NCBI GenBank assembly: GCA_945903645.1
Contig: CAMDOM010000032.1
Coordinates: 1-39,655, forward strand
Direction of reading: 5' to 3'
DNA from: Chryseobacterium gleum
Lineage (GTDB): Bacteria > Bacteroidota > Bacteroidia > UBA10329
DNA: 39,655 nt
The first letter of the stretch is position 1. Every line of letters begins with the position of its first letter. Positions 5,560-39,655 of this stretch are shown here, in pieces. The notes below the pieces were generated by a model. It saw only the letters and a program-made list of their open reading frames with translations, did no database searches and was not told the origin of the DNA. Both the position numbers and the translations under genes were made by a program.

Positions 5560-5799
5560 TTACTTTTCCTTGCGCTGAACCAAAGTTACTTCTTTGCTTT
5601 TCAACGGTTCCGATTTTGCTGCGGGAGCATAAAGTGGTGAAGGAGAAGAAACGGTTGGTGTTGTACTAGGTTGGGCCAAAGGTGCAGTAGCAAGAGTTAC
5701 ACTTACGGGTTTGCCTCCTTTAGTTACTACTCCTCTGTCTTGAGCAAATGCTGTTGTTCCTACTGCGGCAAGGGCGAAAATTAAAACTGACTTTCTCAT
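5560..5799 (-). CDS. Small exported Pro/Ser/Thr-rich protein of unknown function
   Basis: A 79-aa protein with a clear signal peptide (MRKSVLIFALAAVGTTAFAQ, cleavage likely after AFA-Q). The mature part is about 59 residues, low in complexity, rich in Pro, Ser, Thr, Ala and Lys, with no Cys and no recognisable domain. It is a real gene on three grounds: a signal peptide, its own -7 promoter match (5847-5854) and its own strong terminator. It is divergent from the sensor histidine kinase at 5896. I do not recognise the family; a periplasmic or surface location is inferred from the signal peptide only. Confidence 0.7.
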   Translation of the reverse strand: MRKSVLIFALAAVGTTAFAQDRGVVTKGGKPVSVTLATAPLAQPSTTPTVSSPSPLYAPAAKSEPLKSKEVTLVQRKEK

Positions 5800-5846
5800 G
5801 ATTTCATGTTTTTAATGGTTCGGCTGGGTGCTCTCAATTGCCGTGC

Positions 5847-5854
5847 CAAACCTA
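5847..5854 (-). promoter_or_regulatory. Putative -7 promoter element of the small exported protein
   Basis: On the minus strand this reads TAGGTTTG, a full match to TAnnTTTG, 47 nt upstream of the ATG at 5799. Confidence 0.5.
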
Positions 5855-5895
5855 TTTGAGAGCATTTGCTTGGATTGCAATACCTTCGCCAAACC

Positions 5896-7164
5896 ATGAC
5901 AAGACGTGCAATTCGCATCATTATTATGTTGGCCACTGTGTCTATTGTAGGCTTGGTGCTAACACAGCTTTTTTGGATGGACAAGGCATTTGAACTTCGC
6001 GAGCGGGAGTTTGACGACCAAGTGACCGCTGCCCTGCGTGGCGTGGCCATTCAGATTAAAGACATCACCAAGGATTCTACAGAGGTAGCGCCTGTGCGCA
6101 AATTGTCGCGCAATTATTTTGTGGTGACTACCAGCGATACCCTGCATCCCTATTTGCTGCAAAGTTTGTTGGCAAGCGAGTTTAGAGAACGCAGCATTCT
6201 TATCGATTTTGAATACAATATTTATGATTGCTTTACCAACAGCCTCATTTTTGATGGTTATGTGGCGCTATCGGGAAATAAATACGACCGCCCTGTGGAT
6301 GTGGAAATTCCAAGGTCTGATGGGGATAGCCATTATTTTGGAGTTTATTTTCCAGATAAACAGAGCTATTTGTCGGGCAAAATGGGGGTGTGGCTTTTTA
6401 GCTCGGGCATATTGCTTTTGGTATTTGCTTTTTTCGCCTACACCCTTGCGGTTGTGCTGAAACAGAAGCGGCTTACGGAGATTAAGACCGACTTCATCAA
6501 CAATATGACGCACGAGTTTAAGACACCCATTTCTACCATTTCGGCATCGAGCGATGTGCTGCTTTCGGGTGCGTTAGACGCCAATCCCGAAAAGCGAACG
6601 CGCTATTACAAGATGATACATGACGAAAGCGACCGATTGAAATTGCAGGTGGAGAAAGTGCTGCAAATGGCGCAGTTTGATCGCAGCGAGATAGACCTCA
6701 ATTTGGTGGAAGTGGACATAAACGCCCTTATAACCAAGTCCATTGCTGGGGTGCAAATTTTGTTGGACGAGCGCCATGGCCGCATCACTTTGCACTTAGA
6801 TGCCCAACGCCCTATGTATAAGGTGGACGAGCTTCATTTTTCGAACATTATTCGGAATTTGCTGGACAATGCCATTAAATATTGCAAGCAAGAACCCCAC
6901 ATTACCATTACCACTCTAGACACAGACAGTGGCATTAAAGTGCGGGTAGCCGACAACGGTATTGGTATTTCGGCCAAGCTACAACGCGAGATTTTCGAGA
7001 AGTTTTACCGTGTGCCAACGGGCGATGTGCATAATGTGAAAGGCTTTGGCTTGGGGCTCTACTACGTAAAATCGCTGATAGAAGCACATGGCGGCACCAT
7101 TCGCGTGGAAAGTACTGCCGAGGGAAGCACGTTTATACTTTGGCTTCCGAAAGCGGGGAGGTAG
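5896..7164 (+). CDS. Membrane sensor histidine kinase (orphan)
   Basis: A 422-aa two-component sensor kinase that autophosphorylates on His and would pass the phosphate to a response regulator. The start at 5896 (MTRRAIRIII) directly precedes the first membrane segment (about 6-26). A periplasmic sensor region of about 135 residues without a recognised fold follows, then a second membrane segment (about 165-188). The HisKA phospho-acceptor is His206 (MTHEFKTP). The ATPase domain shows the N-box Asn325 (NLLDNAIKY), G1 DNGIG at 353-357 and G2 GFGLGL at 383-388. No response regulator is adjacent, so its partner is elsewhere. TACCTTCG at 5881-5888, a near match to the -7 consensus, would place transcription almost at the start codon. 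The divergent small exported protein could be a target or ligand, but nothing in the sequence proves it. Confidence 0.93.
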   Translation: MTRRAIRIIIMLATVSIVGLVLTQLFWMDKAFELREREFDDQVTAALRGVAIQIKDITKDSTEVAPVRKLSRNYFVVTTSDTLHPYLLQSLLASEFRERSILIDFEYNIYDCFTNSLIFDGYVALSGNKYDRPVDVEIPRSDGDSHYFGVYFPDKQSYLSGKMGVWLFSSGILLLVFAFFAYTLAVVLKQKRLTEIKTDFINNMTHEFKTPISTISASSDVLLSGALDANPEKRTRYYKMIHDESDRLKLQVEKVLQMAQFDRSEIDLNLVEVDINALITKSIAGVQILLDERHGRITLHLDAQRPMYKVDELHFSNIIRNLLDNAIKYCKQEPHITITTLDTDSGIKVRVADNGIGISAKLQREIFEKFYRVPTGDVHNVKGFGLGLYYVKSLIEAHGGTIRVESTAEGSTFILWLPKAGR

Positions 7165-7196
7165 GCAGATGAATGTTTTATTGCTGATATGACCAG

Positions 7197-7796
7197 ATGA
7201 ACACTAGAATTGCGGTGCTCCAGTATTTGTTTTACCTCGGTGCAGGGCTTGCTGCCATTGCCCTTTTTAACGGAACTGGCGAAACAGGCGATAGCATAAC
7301 CCATTATTTGCATACGCGGCATGCTCCGCAGCATCCTATGGCTTTTTTTAATCATTGGGCCAAGCCTTTGTTTTTACTGATTGCTGCCCCGTGGGCTCAA
7401 TTTGGTTTTGTATTTATCAAGCTGTTCAATCTTGTGGTGTCTATTTTGGCGGCCTTGCTTACCCACCTGGCAGCACGCAGAATTGGCCTAGCCAACAATT
7501 GGATTGTGCCCGTGGTGTATTTGCTCACTCCGTTGCAATTTGTGCTCACGTTTTCGGGCCTCACCGAGCCGCTTTTTGCGTTGCTATTGGCCGCGGGCCT
7601 ACTGCTGTTTGTTAGCAATAGGGTGCTGGTTGCGGCTATGGTCGTATCGTTTTTGCCCTTTGTGCGGTCGGCCGCGATGTGCAATCAAGTTGATGTCAAA
7701 CTGTTTGAAGGTGACGAAAGGCTTACGTTGCTCGGGGCTTTTTCTTCGTCTAGCAAGGAGAAGGCATATTCTATTAAGGTTTTTGGCTATGAATAA
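7197..7796 (+). CDS. Truncated/hybrid GT-C glycosyltransferase (probable remnant)
   Basis: Residues 1 to about 157 of this 199-aa product are hydrophobic and match the N-terminal half of a Bacteroidota family of integral-membrane GT39/mannosyltransferase-like enzymes. The GDSITHY motif follows the first helix, then the HWAKPLF stretch and further helices to FLPFVRS. Full members run to roughly 450-500 residues and continue with more membrane segments. Here the sequence switches at about base 7665-7690 to a soluble-looking 40-residue tail (QVDVKLFEGDERL through KVFGYE). Its stop overlaps the next gene's ATG by 8 nt (ATGAATAA, 7789-7796). Inference: an internal deletion joined the 5' part of a glycosyltransferase to the 3' end of a different gene that naturally overlapped the downstream gene. 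It is unlikely to be an active glycosyltransferase. Confidence 0.6.
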   Translation: MNTRIAVLQYLFYLGAGLAAIALFNGTGETGDSITHYLHTRHAPQHPMAFFNHWAKPLFLLIAAPWAQFGFVFIKLFNLVVSILAALLTHLAARRIGLANNWIVPVVYLLTPLQFVLTFSGLTEPLFALLLAAGLLLFVSNRVLVAAMVVSFLPFVRSAAMCNQVDVKLFEGDERLTLLGAFSSSSKEKAYSIKVFGYE

Positions 7797-9090
7797 GCGC
7801 TGGCCTCTTTTCGGTATTGCGTTTATTATGGTGGCGATGACCCTTGTTACCGCCAATTTGAATTGGAATTCGAAATGGAGTAGCAGCATAGTAGAGGCCG
7901 ATGCCAAGGGATATTATGCCTATTTACCCGCCATATTTATTTATCACGACCTCAACTTTGGGTTTGTAGATAGTTTGGAGGGCAAGAAATATTTCGACCC
8001 AACTTTTTTCTACGACTACCGCATTGGTGCGCATGGCCAAACGGTAAATAAATACTACAGCGGTACTGCATTGCTGCAACTGCCTTTTTTCCTTGCCACG
8101 CATGCCTATTGTAAGTTGGGCGGTGCACCGCCCGATGGCTATTCAGAGCCCTATCGTTATATGGTTACGGTGGCTACATTATTCTATTTGTTGCTGGGGC
8201 TATTGGCGTTCAATTGTTTGATGGTGCTATTGGGAGCCAATGCATTTAGCCGAACTGTTGTGCTAGTGGCTATGGTGTTTGGCACCAATTTGTTCTATTA
8301 TGCTGCGGTAGAGCCGGGCATGTCGCATGTGTATTCTTTTGCGGCAGTGGCGGCATTTGCCCTGTTTGCGAAGCGCTATTTTGCTTTTCAGAACGGCAGG
8401 TATCTTATCGCCTCAGGGCTGTTGTTGGGCATTGTTGTGCTTATTCGGCCAGTGAATGGACTTGTGGTGTTGGCCCTTCCGTTTTTGGCGTGTAGCGGTT
8501 CTGCATTTTGGGAAGGTCTAATTGGGTTGGGCAAAAAAGTGAGGGCTTTTGCAGCCGCTTTGGGAGGTATGGCGGCCGTTATTGCCATTCAGTTGGTGAT
8601 ATATCGCATTAGCACAGGCCATTTTTTGGTGTATTCCTATGGGGGCGAGCGCTTAGATTTATTACAACCGCATGTGTGGGATATACTTTTTAGCTACCGC
8701 AAAGGGTTGTTTCTCTACACTCCGTTTCATCTGCTTAGTGTGGCCTGTGTTGGCGTGTTATTTTGGCGCAAACAGTGGTGGATGGGCAGTTGGTATGTAG
8801 TGTTTTTTGTGGGCATTAGTTATGTGCTTTCCTCTTGGTGGAATTGGTGGTATGGCGGTAGTTTTTCGGGGCGAGTGTTTGTTGAATTTCTACCCATACT
8901 AGTGCTTCCAATGGCCACTGCGCTTGGTCTTTTGCGCCAAACTGGAGCTAAGGTCGTGGCGGTTTCTTTGCTCATGGCGCTAGTGGCCTTGTGCCAATTT
9001 CAAACCTATCAATACCGCTACTACCTCATTCATTGGGAAAATATGACCAAGGAAAAGTATTGGGAGGTGTTTTTGAAGATGAATCCATAG
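7789..9090 (+). CDS. Integral membrane glycosyltransferase-like protein (GT-C/GT39 type)
   Basis: A 433-aa polytopic membrane protein with about ten hydrophobic segments. The start is taken at 7789 (MNKRWPLFGIAF), where a first membrane helix begins; a longer reading in the same frame adds a cysteine- and arginine-rich stretch that is only the shadow of the previous gene. A luminal/periplasmic-loop acidic motif follows the first helix (EADAKGYYAYLP, about 33-44). That is where GT-C enzymes using polyprenyl-phosphate sugars carry their catalytic Asp/Glu. The family recalls the dolichyl-phosphate-mannose-type glycosyltransferase 39 group. The acceptor and donor are unknown; surface polysaccharide or protein glycosylation is inference. 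It ends 13 nt from the stop of a convergent gene, with no clear terminator between them. Confidence 0.75.
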   Translation: MNKRWPLFGIAFIMVAMTLVTANLNWNSKWSSSIVEADAKGYYAYLPAIFIYHDLNFGFVDSLEGKKYFDPTFFYDYRIGAHGQTVNKYYSGTALLQLPFFLATHAYCKLGGAPPDGYSEPYRYMVTVATLFYLLLGLLAFNCLMVLLGANAFSRTVVLVAMVFGTNLFYYAAVEPGMSHVYSFAAVAAFALFAKRYFAFQNGRYLIASGLLLGIVVLIRPVNGLVVLALPFLACSGSAFWEGLIGLGKKVRAFAAALGGMAAVIAIQLVIYRISTGHFLVYSYGGERLDLLQPHVWDILFSYRKGLFLYTPFHLLSVACVGVLFWRKQWWMGSWYVVFFVGISYVLSSWWNWWYGGSFSGRVFVEFLPILVLPMATALGLLRQTGAKVVAVSLLMALVALCQFQTYQYRYYLIHWENMTKEKYWEVFLKMNP

Positions 9091-34684: not shown

Positions 34685-35542
34685 ATGTTGACAAGAACGC
34701 TATTCTCCATTTTAATTCTCCTAACTGCGATGGATTCGGCATTGGCTCAAAAATTTGAGTTAGAAAAAGGCGATACCATCAACAGGCGAGATGCAAGCGA
34801 TTTTAAGCAAGGATGGTGGAAAATTTTTAACCGTGAGGGAAAATTTAAAGGCTATACTGAAGGCCAAATTGTGGAGGAAGGAGATTATGTAAACAACAAA
34901 AAATCAGGAGTTTGGACAAAATACTATCCTGGTGGGAGTAAGAAACATGAACTCACTTTTGCGAACAATGTTGCCAATGGATTTGCTCGAATCTATTATC
35001 GCAACGGCCAATTGCAAGAAGAAGGAATTTGGCAGCAAAACAAATGGTCGGGTCAGTACAAGTATTACCATGAAAATGGCAATTTGAAGTATGACTGGAA
35101 CTACAACTCTTCGGGCAAGCGAGAAGGGGATCAGAAGTATTTCCACGAAAATGGAATGCTTCAATATTTGGGAGATTGGAAAAACGGAAATGAAGCAGGA
35201 CAGCTGCTAGAATACTACGATGATGGCTCTTTAAAAACCAAACGTTTCTTTAACGAAGGCAAGGTAGATGAGGCTAAAACCGAGAATATAGTTCAAGGTA
35301 AAACCTACGACCAGAATATCAAGAAATATACTGGTAAGCCAGCGCCAAAAGTTATGGCTCGCGGAGAAATTATTGATGGATTTAACCGTGTTATGAATGC
35401 CGATGGCTCGCTATCGAAAGAAGGAAGTTTCAAAGACAAGCGATTGATTGATGGCAAGGAACTTATCTATGAAGGCGGTAAAGTTGTGAAAGTCATTATG
35501 TACAAGGATGGCAAACGCACGGGTGAAGAAGGGGTGAAGTAG
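34685..35542 (+). CDS. Exported MORN-repeat protein
   Basis: A 285-aa protein with a signal peptide (MLTRTLFSILILLTAMDSALAQ). Then come about six to eight MORN-variant repeats with the pattern G-x-W/Q-x-x-Y/F-x-x-x-G-x-x-K/L-x-E/Y (for example KSGVWTKYYPGGSKKHEL and GQYKYYHENGNLKYDW). Databases often label such proteins as YwqK-family antitoxins, but there is no toxin here and the signal peptide argues against it. It is read 5 nt before the His/Cys-rich gene, so the two are probably co-transcribed. Function unknown; periplasmic or surface location inferred. Confidence 0.85.
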   Translation: MLTRTLFSILILLTAMDSALAQKFELEKGDTINRRDASDFKQGWWKIFNREGKFKGYTEGQIVEEGDYVNNKKSGVWTKYYPGGSKKHELTFANNVANGFARIYYRNGQLQEEGIWQQNKWSGQYKYYHENGNLKYDWNYNSSGKREGDQKYFHENGMLQYLGDWKNGNEAGQLLEYYDDGSLKTKRFFNEGKVDEAKTENIVQGKTYDQNIKKYTGKPAPKVMARGEIIDGFNRVMNADGSLSKEGSFKDKRLIDGKELIYEGGKVVKVIMYKDGKRTGEEGVK

Positions 35543-35547
35543 AAGTA

Positions 35548-35952
35548 GTGATAATCACCTCAAGAAATAAGGAACTTTTGAGATGCAGCATAGCCGTAGT
35601 CCTGTTAGCTGCGTATTTCTTGGTTTCCGGGCCATTTCGGTTGTTGCACGAATCTGTGCATCATCACCATGAAGAGCTGCATACTGAAGCCCAAGAGGCC
35701 GATGGTTGCCATCGCGCCATCTACCACGGTGAAATAGACAATTCTTGCACCCACAGGAGTCATATTCACGCGGTTGAAGTGGAATGCAGTTTGTGCAAGG
35801 CTTCGGTTTCGCGCTACTTTTTTCATCAAGATTGGCAGCATGTTGTTGCTACATTAACTCCAAATGGAGCTTTAGTTTGCACCGTTTTTTCAGGAAAAGC
35901 AGAGGCTTATTGGTCCGATAATTCCCTTCGCGGACCTCCGACTAAATCCTAG
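35548..35952 (+). CDS. His/Cys-rich single-pass membrane protein of the metal-uptake locus
   Basis: A 134-aa protein starting at GTG (35548), 5 nt after the MORN gene. One membrane segment (about 14-33) is followed by a histidine-rich stretch (His34, 38-41, 45), then Cys54, His55, His60, Cys67, His69, His72, His74, Cys80 and Cys83 (CSLCK). The C-terminus reads LRGPP, a tail also seen in small DUF2946-like proteins found next to metal-related TonB receptors. Many potential metal ligands on the exported side suggest binding of zinc or copper. I cannot name the family with confidence. Lack of an ATG makes the exact start uncertain. Confidence 0.7.
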   Translation: MIITSRNKELLRCSIAVVLLAAYFLVSGPFRLLHESVHHHHEELHTEAQEADGCHRAIYHGEIDNSCTHRSHIHAVEVECSLCKASVSRYFFHQDWQHVVATLTPNGALVCTVFSGKAEAYWSDNSLRGPPTKS

Positions 35953-36059
35953 TCGCCTGCCCAGATTTATCTGGTAAATCAAGTATTAACAAGCAAGTGG
36001 ATTATTCGCGCCTAATGGTGTCTGCCTTATTTGCTGCAACTTATTTAAAAAAATAACTC

Positions 36060-36626
36060 ATGAACCAATTCAATAAAGCAGCTTGGATGATGCCTATAAT
36101 TCTCGTTTTTACATTTTCATCCTGCGAAAAAGAAGATCCAGATCCAATTAATGAAGAGGAAATAATAACCACTCTCACCTATACGCTTACGCCTCAAGGT
36201 GGCGGTGCGGCTGTAGTATTTTCTTTTCGGGATTTGGATGGAGATGGTGGAAATGCTCCAGTTATCACTTTTGGCAATTTGGCTGCAAACACCACCTATT
36301 CGGCTACGCTGCAATTGTTAAGTGAAGTTGTTAGCCCAGCCGAGGATATTACAGTGGAGGTTTTAGAAGAAGCCGTTGATCACCAGTTCTTTTTTGCTGC
36401 TGCTAGCGCCCTAAATGCTTCAGTTTCTTACAATGACGAAGATGGTGATGGCAATCCAATTGGCGTGGCTTCAACAGTTACAACTGGTGACGCATCTTCT
36501 GGAAATCTGACTATCACTCTTCGGCATGAGCCCGATAAGTTTGCTGCTGGGGTTGCAGATGGCGATATATTGAATGCCGGTGGTGAAACAGATATTGAAG
36601 TAACGTTCAGTGTCACCATTCAATAA
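36060..36626 (+). CDS. Lipoprotein upstream of and overlapping the TonB receptor
   Basis: A 188-aa lipoprotein with signal and lipobox Cys22 (FTFSSCEKED). The residues after Cys are Lys/Asp/Glu-rich, as in the surface-export signals of Bacteroidota lipoproteins. The rest is beta-rich with Ca2+-loop-like motifs (DLDGDGG and DEDGDGNP) and HEPDKFAAG. Its stop overlaps the TonB-receptor start by 17 nt, so translation is likely coupled. It probably acts as a surface accessory of that receptor. Family not recognised beyond this. Confidence 0.8.
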   Translation: MNQFNKAAWMMPIILVFTFSSCEKEDPDPINEEEIITTLTYTLTPQGGGAAVVFSFRDLDGDGGNAPVITFGNLAANTTYSATLQLLSEVVSPAEDITVEVLEEAVDHQFFFAAASALNASVSYNDEDGDGNPIGVASTVTTGDASSGNLTITLRHEPDKFAAGVADGDILNAGGETDIEVTFSVTIQ

Positions 36627-38922
36627 GCTCGGGCTTTTTGCATTTTGGTTAATCCCTGTGCTTGGGTTTGGACAGCAATGCCAAACCACCATTACCGGAA
36701 CGGTAGTGGACGAAAGCACAGGGATACCATTGCCCTATGGAACGGTTTTTATCCAAGAATTGCAAGTTGGAGTTGCTTCCGATAGCATTGGGCGCTTTCA
36801 GTTGAAAGGACTCTGCAAAGGCCCCTATCATCTACAATTCAATCATATTGGCTGCGAAACGCATAGTGTTTTCATCGAGTTGGTAAGCGATACAACAGTT
36901 GAAATTGCCATGCATCATCACAGCGAATTGGTAGACGAGGTGGTAATTCACGACAACAAATCTGACCATACCACGCAGATGAGTTCTTCTATTAGTAGAG
37001 ATGCTATAAAGGATGAAACCAGCAAGGATTTGTCCATCATGTTAGAGCAGATGGTAGGCGTGAGCAGCATAAAAACGGGTGCGGGCGTTTCAAAACCAGT
37101 GATTCATGGGCTTTCTGGAAATAGAGTTACAATGCTAAATAATGGAATAGCCCAAAGCGGGCAGCAATGGGGCAACGACCATGCGCCCGAAATTGACCCG
37201 TTCGTGGCCGACTATATTTCTGTGGTCAAAGGCGCAAGTGCATTGGCCTATACCGGAGGGTCGCTTGGAGGCGTAGTGTTGGTGGAACCTGACGATATTG
37301 AGAATGACCCGCATTTGCATGGCGAGGTTAACTACATTTTTCAAACCAATGGATTGGGTCATACCCTCAATGCCCGATTGCAGAACTATGCAAAGTGGGC
37401 CGCATGGCGTGTTTCGGCCACGGCAAAAGTTTTTGGCGATAGACAAACACCCAATTATTACCTCACCAATACGGGCAAGCGAGAATATAATGTTGCCTTG
37501 CAAATGGAGAAAAAAATAAAGCCAAGGTGGCGAATGAAGCTTTATTACAGCTTTTTCAATACCGAAATCGGCATTCTAAGAGGTTCGCATATTGGCAACC
37601 TAACCGATTTGCAGGAGGCTTTTTTGCGGGAGGAACCTTTCTACACTAGCGATGCATTTTCGTATTCCATAAATCAGCCGCGGCAAATGGTTCAGCATCA
37701 TTTGCTAAAATTGGAAAGCCAACACATTCTAAACGAGCATCAAAGCCTCAATTTTAAGTATGGTGGCCAGTTGAACAACAGGCAGGAGTTTGATGTGCGA
37801 AGAAGTGGCCGAAGTGATTCGCCTGCGTTAAGTCTTTTCCAATGGGACCATTTTATTGAGTCGATGTATCGCCAACAGTTTGGAGAATTTTTGCAAATGA
37901 AAATTGGCGTGCAGTTTCGTTTAACCGACAACACCAACAATCCCGAAACAGGAATTTTACCGTTGCTACCCGATTATCGCGCTTATCGAGGCGCTGCAGT
38001 TGCCATACTTCAACGGGATAAAAACAAACTGCTTTATGAAATTGGTGCCCGCTACGATTTAAGCTATTTGCAAATCGTGGGTTTTTCTACCACTGTTCCG
38101 CGAACTGTTGAGCGCAACTATCATACCTTTCACAACTACGGAGTTTCGGGCGGAGTGCGCTACAAAGTGTTGCCGCAATTGAAATTGAGCCTAGATGTTG
38201 GTCATGTGCTTCGGTCGCCCGAGGTGAATGAACTCTACAGCGCAGGATTGCATCAAGGCGTGAGCGGCATCGAAGAAGGTAATCGCAATTTGAGCAGCGA
38301 GCGCTCTACCAAAGTTGTCCTTTCAGCCGATGGAGCACTTGGAAAAAAACTGTTTGTTCAAGTGCTTGGCTATTATCAATACATCTCCAACTTCATTTAT
38401 TTACAGCCTCAGCCTGAATTTCGACTTACCATTCGCGGAGCATTTCCCTTGTTTCAGTATCAACAAACGGATGCAACGTTGGTAGGAACGGATGTGCTGA
38501 TTTCGTACGAACCCATTTCCCGACTTCGAGTTATTGCCAAGTATGCGTTTCTGAGGGGCATGGATTCGCGCCAAAATCTGCCACTGATTTACATGCCGGC
38601 CAACAATCTTTTTGGTTCCATTGCCTATTCATTCAAAGATGGAAAGCAGCGAAAAAACACAGCCTTCACAATCAATGGACGCTACGTGTTTAAGCAAGAA
38701 AATCTCAACGCAGACCAAGATTATCTACCTGCTCCTGCGGGTTACTTTCTACTTGGAGCCAGCCTTAGCAGTTCTTTTTCGTGGAAAGAGGCATCATTCA
38801 AATGCTCTTTGAATGCCGAAAACATGCTGAATACCTCCTATCGCGACTATCTAAATCGCCAGCGCTACTTTGCCAACGATTTGGGCTGGAATCTCAGCGT
38901 TCGCGTCAATTATTTGTTCTAG
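36610..38922 (+). CDS. TonB-dependent outer-membrane receptor, ZnuD-like (putative zinc/metal uptake)
   Basis: A 770-aa outer-membrane receptor with GTG start (36610) and signal peptide (about 1-22, ending FGQQ). A carboxypeptidase-regulatory-like beta-sandwich (about 25-112) precedes a VDEVVI stretch that may be the TonB box, then the plug (about 125-240) and the 22-strand barrel to the terminal Phe. The plug reads SKPVIHGLSGNRV, then NDHAPEIDP with Asp190-His191, then VKGASALAYTGGSLGG. The DHA-x-x-x-D form resembles the zinc receptor ZnuD, where this Asp-His pair binds metal. Zinc or another heavy metal as substrate is therefore inference, supported by the His-rich and lipoprotein neighbours. 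Confidence 0.9.
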   Translation: MSPFNKLGLFAFWLIPVLGFGQQCQTTITGTVVDESTGIPLPYGTVFIQELQVGVASDSIGRFQLKGLCKGPYHLQFNHIGCETHSVFIELVSDTTVEIAMHHHSELVDEVVIHDNKSDHTTQMSSSISRDAIKDETSKDLSIMLEQMVGVSSIKTGAGVSKPVIHGLSGNRVTMLNNGIAQSGQQWGNDHAPEIDPFVADYISVVKGASALAYTGGSLGGVVLVEPDDIENDPHLHGEVNYIFQTNGLGHTLNARLQNYAKWAAWRVSATAKVFGDRQTPNYYLTNTGKREYNVALQMEKKIKPRWRMKLYYSFFNTEIGILRGSHIGNLTDLQEAFLREEPFYTSDAFSYSINQPRQMVQHHLLKLESQHILNEHQSLNFKYGGQLNNRQEFDVRRSGRSDSPALSLFQWDHFIESMYRQQFGEFLQMKIGVQFRLTDNTNNPETGILPLLPDYRAYRGAAVAILQRDKNKLLYEIGARYDLSYLQIVGFSTTVPRTVERNYHTFHNYGVSGGVRYKVLPQLKLSLDVGHVLRSPEVNELYSAGLHQGVSGIEEGNRNLSSERSTKVVLSADGALGKKLFVQVLGYYQYISNFIYLQPQPEFRLTIRGAFPLFQYQQTDATLVGTDVLISYEPISRLRVIAKYAFLRGMDSRQNLPLIYMPANNLFGSIAYSFKDGKQRKNTAFTINGRYVFKQENLNADQDYLPAPAGYFLLGASLSSSFSWKEASFKCSLNAENMLNTSYRDYLNRQRYFANDLGWNLSVRVNYLF

Positions 38923-39062
38923 TTCAATTGCAAATTGAGAAGTCCTTGTCTAGCACTAGAACCTTGAAGCAAACTTCAACCAAGTGCAATAGCGCGTTCT
39001 AGTGCATTTTTCTCTTGCGCAACCAAGAACTTTCAGAACTTTAACCCACAATTAACTATCCA
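38923..39062 (+). other. Structured spacer between the TonB receptor and the DUF4625 gene
   Basis: This 140-nt spacer holds three inverted repeats: TCAATT-GCA-AATTGA right after the stop (38924-38938), GCACTAGAAC/GTTCTAGTGC (38953-38962 with 38996-39005) and, nested in it, TTGAAG-CAAA-CTTCAA (38964-38979). The outer 10-bp stem is followed by five T, so partial termination is possible. Confidence 0.6.
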
Positions 39063-39655
39063 ATGCGCTTCACTATAATTCTCGTTTTTTTGGCGTCAGT
39101 TTCAATTTTTGGGTGCAGCGATGCGGATACAGAAAAACCGCTGCTCACCGATTTAAGCATAACCCCTTCACCTACTATTGGTTTGGTATGCGACCTTCCA
39201 GATTCTTCAGTGATAGAAGTGTTATCGGGCGATAGCATTGCCATTTTCATGAACGTGAGCGACAATGAACAGCTCCGCCAGTATAAGATTGATGTTCACC
39301 CAAATTTCGATTGCCATGCCCATGCCAAGCTCCAAACTGCTGATTGGTCGGTAAGCGAAGTTGTTGAACTATCGGGCACATCGGCACAGATTTCTAGAAG
39401 CATTCTCATTCCTGATAGCGCCACAGCGGGCACATATCATCTCAGTATTCAGGTGGCCGACCATTTTGGGAACTCCGTGAAAACTAATATTTACTCCATT
39501 TTGGTTTCCAATAGAACCGATACCATCGCCCCAGTATTGATGGTCATTCAGCCAAACACGCTAGACTTGGTCGTTTCCTTGAGCGATACCATCCCGAACG
39601 ACAGCATAATTTTCGTGGGTACCGTTTCCGATAATATGAATCTTGGTTTGGAGGG
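39063..39655 (+). CDS. DUF4625-type lipoprotein, 3' end cut by the window
   Basis: The frame from the ATG at 39063 stays open to the last base (197 codons visible). The lipoprotein signal ends at Cys18 (SIFGCSD). The first domain (about 28-140) has DSIAIFMNVSDNEQLRQY, then a ligand-rich IDVHPNFDCHAH (His79, Cys84, His85, His87), then IPDSATAGTYHLSIQVADHFGN. This matches the DUF4625 family of surface lipoproteins found next to TonB receptors in Bacteroidota. A second copy appears to start near residue 175 (NDSIIFVGTVSDNMNL). Inference: an accessory binding protein for the upstream receptor, perhaps binding metal. Confidence 0.82.
   Translation, partial: MRFTIILVFLASVSIFGCSDADTEKPLLTDLSITPSPTIGLVCDLPDSSVIEVLSGDSIAIFMNVSDNEQLRQYKIDVHPNFDCHAHAKLQTADWSVSEVVELSGTSAQISRSILIPDSATAGTYHLSIQVADHFGNSVKTNIYSILVSNRTDTIAPVLMVIQPNTLDLVVSLSDTIPNDSIIFVGTVSDNMNLGLE

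Follow-up and report, generated by a model that had tools for sequence, protein, structure and literature searches.

A candidate zinc-responsive translation-arrest leader alternates with Zur at a ZnuD-like receptor operon of Bacteroidota

We analysed a window of 39,655 nt, the entire contig C32 in a Bacteroidota genome of 3.2 Mb (G000, 95% complete), in which a small His/Cys-rich ORF stands just upstream of genes for an outer-membrane lipoprotein, a ZnuD-like TonB-dependent receptor and a DUF4625 lipoprotein. It is probable, in our judgement, that these genes form an operon for zinc uptake under the control of a metal-sensing arrest leader, and the best reading is that the leader took the place of Zur control in the window's genus. 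We favour, with a little more reserve, a wider proposal in which a zinc-sensing arrest leader replaced Zur at the outer-membrane zinc-uptake operon in parts of Bacteroidota, and in which its family, one sensor build, serves zinc operons (ZnuD-like receptor with lipoprotein; ZnuA with ABC-3 permease) and copper operons (receptor–MbnP–MbnH).

Results

Gene content of the locus

Five consecutive + strand ORFs occupy positions 34685–39655, exactly as placed by a first-pass annotation of the sequence, which had read all of them as one candidate metal-acquisition locus; the placement holds, and the parts need re-sorting. The first ORF encodes an exported MORN_2 protein (34685–35542, +; PF07661, E 1e-16) and is rejected as a member, since in the genus-mates L065–L068 unrelated genes fill its place and its adjacency therefore looks like chance. 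The annotation had itself proposed co-occurrence of the small genes with the receptor as a check on its reading; when we ran this check, the 188-aa lipoprotein and DUF4625 were found to co-occur with the receptor, and the MORN gene was not. Just before the MORN gene, a SiaC-family regulatory phosphoprotein (PF09345; 34173–34556, −) is encoded convergently with an epimerase gene.

A ZnuD-like receptor and its lipoprotein neighbours

The receptor (36610–38922, +; 770 aa) comprises CarboxypepD_reg, Plug and TonB barrel domains (PF00593, PF07715, PF13715). Its closest solved relative is ZnuD of Neisseria meningitidis (4rdr), whose zinc site is given as D90 (sic)/H100/E340/H499 (PMC4557270). In a profile alignment with 4rdr (residue numbers in its chain are shifted by 14), the plug pair D190–H191 (codons 37177–37182, +) falls on the zinc-site Asp-His pair of ZnuD, a likeness already spotted in the first pass, and barrel H548 (codon 38251–38253, +) falls on H499; the receptor loop that matches E340 is unreliably aligned. 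Among the aligned relatives (of 120), H191 is kept in 117 of 118 and H548 in 117 of 119. The retained site residues and the choice of ZnuD as best solved relative support the earlier assignment of the receptor as a ZnuD-like, zinc-type importer. We name it ZnuD-like and not a ZnuD equivalog because it scores 117.9 bits against the NCBIfam ZnuD model NF038289, below the cut-off of 950. It differs from ZnuD in having a carboxypeptidase-regulatory domain at the N-terminus, its own dedicated lipoprotein and candidate control by a leader. A copper receptor of the CrtA/OprC type was considered and ruled out by the site residues and by the best solved relative. In one relative (L108, G063; 5589–7935) the receptor gene reads as two ORFs in succession, preceded by an intact leader and a Zur box; this reflects either a sequencing error or a pseudogene.

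The ligand might be a zinc chelate (metallophore) or haem instead of zinc itself, which we regard as unlikely. Chelates are the usual cargo of TonB receptors, and the NCBIfam haem-receptor models score about as high as the ZnuD model, all of them below their cut-offs; against this stand the retained ZnuD site residues, the Zur box and the linkage to Zur described below. A zinc chelate is a possible substrate and would leave the regulatory reading unchanged.

Upstream of the receptor lies the gene of an outer-membrane lipoprotein of 188 aa (36060–36626, +) with lipobox Cys22, whose stop codon overlaps the GTG start of the receptor by 17 nt, as the annotation had it. We searched the lipoprotein and the receptor each against 99 related genomes and read the neighbourhoods of the matches. 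In the 80 named loci taken from GTDB genomes for the linkage count, the lipoprotein lies near the receptor in 72, in both gene orders, with two or more switches of order on the tree. Lipobox C22, H108, G135, H156 and D178 are invariant in the lipoprotein alignment. The AlphaFold2 model (pLDDT 90.8) is a confident beta-sandwich. Foldseek returned no match to this model at E 0.001 or better, and the family search gave no confident family assignment; the best VIA match, at Z 8.4, is at the level of an Ig-like sandwich and may mean only a common arrangement. The residues EKED directly after the Cys fit a signal that reportedly directs lipoprotein export to the surface in Bacteroidota, so the lipoprotein is likely surface-exposed. 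Metal may be passed from the lipoprotein to the receptor.

The last gene (39063–39655, +) encodes a DUF4625 lipoprotein (PF15418, E 7e-23) and is cut by the contig end, because the window is the whole contig. The ligand cluster HPNFDCHAH that the annotation had pointed out occupies residues 79–87 (codons 39297–39323, +). Its core, [DE]xHxH, is present in 13 of 31 DUF4625 copies, and all 13 adjoin a receptor, Zur or a Zur box. DUF4625 is a recurrent neighbour of ZnuD-like receptors and of Zur: of the strong cases that we examined, most have it next to one or both, and boxes lie at the DUF4625 promoter in L229–L233, L236, L238, L239 and L253. In G007, a genome of the window's genus with neither leader nor receptor, Zur neighbours a DUF4625 gene that carries two boxes. 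A second DUF4625 lipoprotein of G000 (C3:64995–65324; L003, 8915–9688) lies beside a long phosphatase/dehydrogenase-like gene and has no metal context; similar copies occur in genus-mates.

Anatomy of the candidate leader

The second ORF of the series (35548–35952, +) encodes 134 aa, with a hydrophobic segment at about residues 15–31 followed by a His-rich region, and contains 13 His and 6 Cys. It has no Pfam or NCBIfam match of its own. A CXXC pair, C80-S-L-C83 (codons 35785–35796, +), forms the predicted metal site, and a predicted ribosome-arrest motif, R128-G-P-P131 (codons 35929–35940, +), lies 44 residues further on and is followed by T-K-S and the stop codon. The first pass had taken the ORF for a membrane-bound, metal-binding part of the uptake machine. 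We replace this by a leader reading because of the CXXC, the fixed spacing, the R[AG]PP before the stop and the place just upstream of the operon; the features that are conserved are those of translation-arrest leaders.

In relatives, 47 ORFs with a C-terminal [RK][AG]PP head the same operon; because they were found via this motif, only its position, the spacing and its specificity count as independent evidence. The motif is RGPP in 33, RAPP in 10 and KGPP in 4 (L085, L092, L093 and L095), and it is trailed by 1–5 residues in 41 of the 47. CXXC is present in 37 leaders and not in the other 10; where present, it lies 43, 44, 45 or 47 residues from the motif in 36 of 37, and the spacing holds while the linker sequence varies. 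Mean column identity over the leaders is 15%, with scattered His and Cys, several of the His being conserved. Such an ending occurs in just 3 of 2077 other ORFs of 80–260 aa at the same loci, and two of those three are further leaders. An in-frame DNA pattern of the leader architecture recovers known leaders and new ones in other genomes; the out-of-frame control pattern (136 N gap), searched in the genomes, matched no leader.

This anatomy is shared with CruR (DUF2946, PF11162), the short exported-type leader that heads the TonB-receptor operon bfrG/crtA in Bordetella pertussis (PMC9426467, PMC12914433): a CXXC, about 45 residues, a C-terminal R[AG]PP with a few residues between it and the stop codon, and an intergenic gap. 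In CruR itself the CXXC is followed by 45 residues, RAPP and three more residues; the RAPP, the CXXC and their spacing were shown to matter, and the sensed metal is copper (PMC9426467). In vitro, CruR was shown to arrest in a RAPP-dependent way (PMC12992588). Weak matches to PF11162 were obtained for 5 of 45 leader relatives (E up to 0.1; best E 7e-6), and the window leader has no match to it at E 1. The most likely identity of the His/Cys-rich ORF is therefore a leader of the CruR/DUF2946 kind that arrests translation; ribosome arrest, zinc as the sensed ion and the direction of control are inferences.

Leader and adjacent Zur gene exclude each other

We compared 120 receptor operons, sampled by receptor similarity and arranged on a FastTree tree; Zur was identified from Fur-family sequence (Zur-like Cys/His clusters), the box and the neighbours. 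An adjacent Zur-like gene is present in 23 operons, a leader in 47 and both in none (Fisher test, 2.4e-6), and the leader and adjacent-Zur states interchange on the tree, with five changes. A palindrome derived de novo, TGCAACnnnGTTGCA (at most one mismatch), precedes 46 of 69 non-leader operons, namely 18 of 23 Zur-linked and 28 of 46 other loci, versus 5 of 47 leader operons (Fisher test, 1e-9); shuffled sequences give 0.2% at most. In other Bacteroidota, an adjacent Zur gene and/or the TGCAACnnnGTTGCA box stands in place of the leader. Two loci (L097 and L099, in G053 and G062) cluster the receptor–lipoprotein pair with Zur and with genes that, from sequence, we take to encode a COG0523-type GTPase, a MerC-like and a FolE-like protein. 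Together with Zur, this set is a known zinc-starvation ensemble.

Among lipoprotein-bearing genomes, Zur is encoded in 10 of 10 without a leader versus 8 of 27 with one (p 1e-4); counted by family, the figures are 8 of 8 versus 7 of 18 (p 0.007). The eight leader genomes in which Zur is present as well count against the proposed replacement. Boxes occur in 4 of 9 Zur-encoding leader genomes versus none of about 22 Zur-less ones. In these four leader operons (L078, L086, L091 and L108) the box lies within about 50 nt of the leader 5′ end, a distance measured from gene starts as called, and some of these calls may lie too far upstream. Leader genomes of the window's genus are without recognisable Zur: G000, at 95% completeness, encodes a single Fur-family protein, which does not match the Zur profile, and the window contains no TGCAACnnnGTTGCA at up to one mismatch.

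Zinc or copper

The metal cannot be read from leader anatomy alone, because a copper-type operon in G027 is headed by a leader of this build; the metal assignment here rests on operon content and Zur boxes. That operon (L347, G027:C4) consists of the leader, a TonB receptor, MbnP, a MauG/MbnH-type di-haem protein and further genes, and is a probable copper branch. Leaders of the same build (L347, L348–L354 and L356–L359) also head TonB-receptor genes of other clades. In L346 (G070:C14, 501–4011) and L355 (G065:C39) a leader stands directly before a gene for a 394-aa exported, family-less protein of outer-membrane type, and the operon continues with ZnuA (PF01297) and an ABC-3 permease; at these two loci an arrest leader may govern the import of zinc across the inner membrane. 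Leaders of this class therefore serve more than one metal.

It could accordingly be asked whether the leader is simply a Bacteroidota CruR, with leader-led receptors importing copper, as in the CruR–CrtA pair of Bordetella, and Zur-led receptors importing zinc. We judge this improbable. CruR is the only tested relative of this anatomy and senses copper through its CXXC, the leader–TBDT–MbnP–MbnH operon exists in G027, and the 28 receptors with E190 in place of D190 fall in leader-led operons and in operons with neither a leader nor an adjacent Zur gene, none of them Zur-adjacent. However, the same zinc-site His are kept in leader-led and Zur-led receptors, the two states interchange five times on the tree, Zur boxes lie ahead of four leaders in Zur-encoding genomes, and a leader heads a ZnuA/ABC-3 operon. 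Moreover, the functional His358 of CrtA and the OprC site lie elsewhere than the site of this receptor. Zinc is the better reading for the operon.

A very unlikely alternative is that the His/Cys-rich ORF encodes a conventional exported protein of the uptake pathway, a metal binder or chaperone, whose RGPP ending is incidental. Its hydrophobic N-terminus, its 13 His and 6 Cys and the conservation of several His would suit a periplasmic metal buffer, yet outside scattered His and Cys the sequence is barely conserved (15%) while C-terminal motif, CXXC distance and gene position are, and bacterial proteomes avoid RGPP/RAPP, which is enriched in small ORFs before TonB receptor genes (PMC12992588).

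Proposed mechanism of control

In the zinc-sensing leader mechanism that we propose, the ribosome translating the leader would stall at RGPP when zinc is scarce, and the stalled ribosome would allow expression of the lipoprotein, the ZnuD-like receptor and probably DUF4625, either (i) by blocking Rho or (ii) by opening structure near the next start codon. The receptor would then import zinc through its Asp-His/His site, together with a surface lipoprotein partner. When zinc is sufficient, the nascent leader would bind it via the CXXC and the His cluster. With the ribosome at RGPP, the CXXC would be about 45 residues or more from the catalytic centre, at or beyond the tunnel exit, and the conserved H34 and H40 behind the hydrophobic segment would be further out, perhaps across the membrane. 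The zinc-bound leader would fold, release the stall and turn expression off, following the same logic as Zur.

Leader and lipoprotein gene are separated by 107 nt (35953–36059, +), with similar gaps in relatives (median 68 nt). Over 36 leaders, modelling a ribosome footprint over the motif makes the next start codon more accessible, by 2.1 kcal/mol against 0.3 kcal/mol for shuffled sequences (p 4e-4). Nine cases are strong, and the effect is clearest in the genus-mates L067 and L068, where the leader-end codons are predicted to pair with the lipoprotein start. Structure models thus support start-codon control over the leader family and not in the window copy, where no start-sequestering hairpin is predicted in the 107-nt gap region. 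Because the window copy shows no such hairpin, its leader may act via Rho, as CruR does. A clear Rho signature was looked for and rejected, the best C-over-G window at the leader end reaching just the 95th percentile of the window.

Discussion

The candidate leader belongs beside known metal-responsive leaders and departs from each of them. CruR is copper-responsive and its operon contains PepSY_TM, whereas here a ZnuD-type receptor, a lipoprotein and DUF4625 follow the leader, with Zur or its box in relatives; Bacteroidota are not among the named CruR hosts, and Roy et al. note that neither copper nor zinc has a known riboswitch (PMC9426467). RGPP/RAPP uORFs before TonB-receptor genes have been described as a class across Gram-negatives, nearly all with signal sequences (EMBO J 2025, PMC12992588). 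The association with TonB-receptor genes is the same as here; the available text of that article names neither zinc nor Zur, reports the Cu-related leader class as absent from Bacteroidota, and contains no test of RGPP/RAPP uORFs in Bacteroidota that we could find. CutF of Rhodobacter capsulatus, whose end is proline-rich and stall-like, is likewise a metal-binding exported leader that governs a gene downstream, but copper enhances its effect and does not relieve it, and its target is a multicopper oxidase; among CutF-like leaders some have been proposed for Ni/Co and none for zinc (PMC9973294). Our literature search found no zinc-sensing arrest peptide, no leader alternating with Zur, no placement of the 188-aa lipoprotein or DUF4625 in a zinc regulon, and no TGCAACnnnGTTGCA box.

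If our reading is true, a kind of switch so far described for copper would have a zinc counterpart in this leader, because in relatives the zinc repressor Zur controls the same genes. The palindrome TGCAACnnnGTTGCA is a candidate Zur operator for Bacteroidota, and DUF4625 and the unnamed family of the 188-aa lipoprotein would gain a functional home. One leader family would show metal specificity differing on a fixed scaffold, and many Bacteroidota would run zinc homeostasis without Zur, by co-translational sensing at the ribosome.
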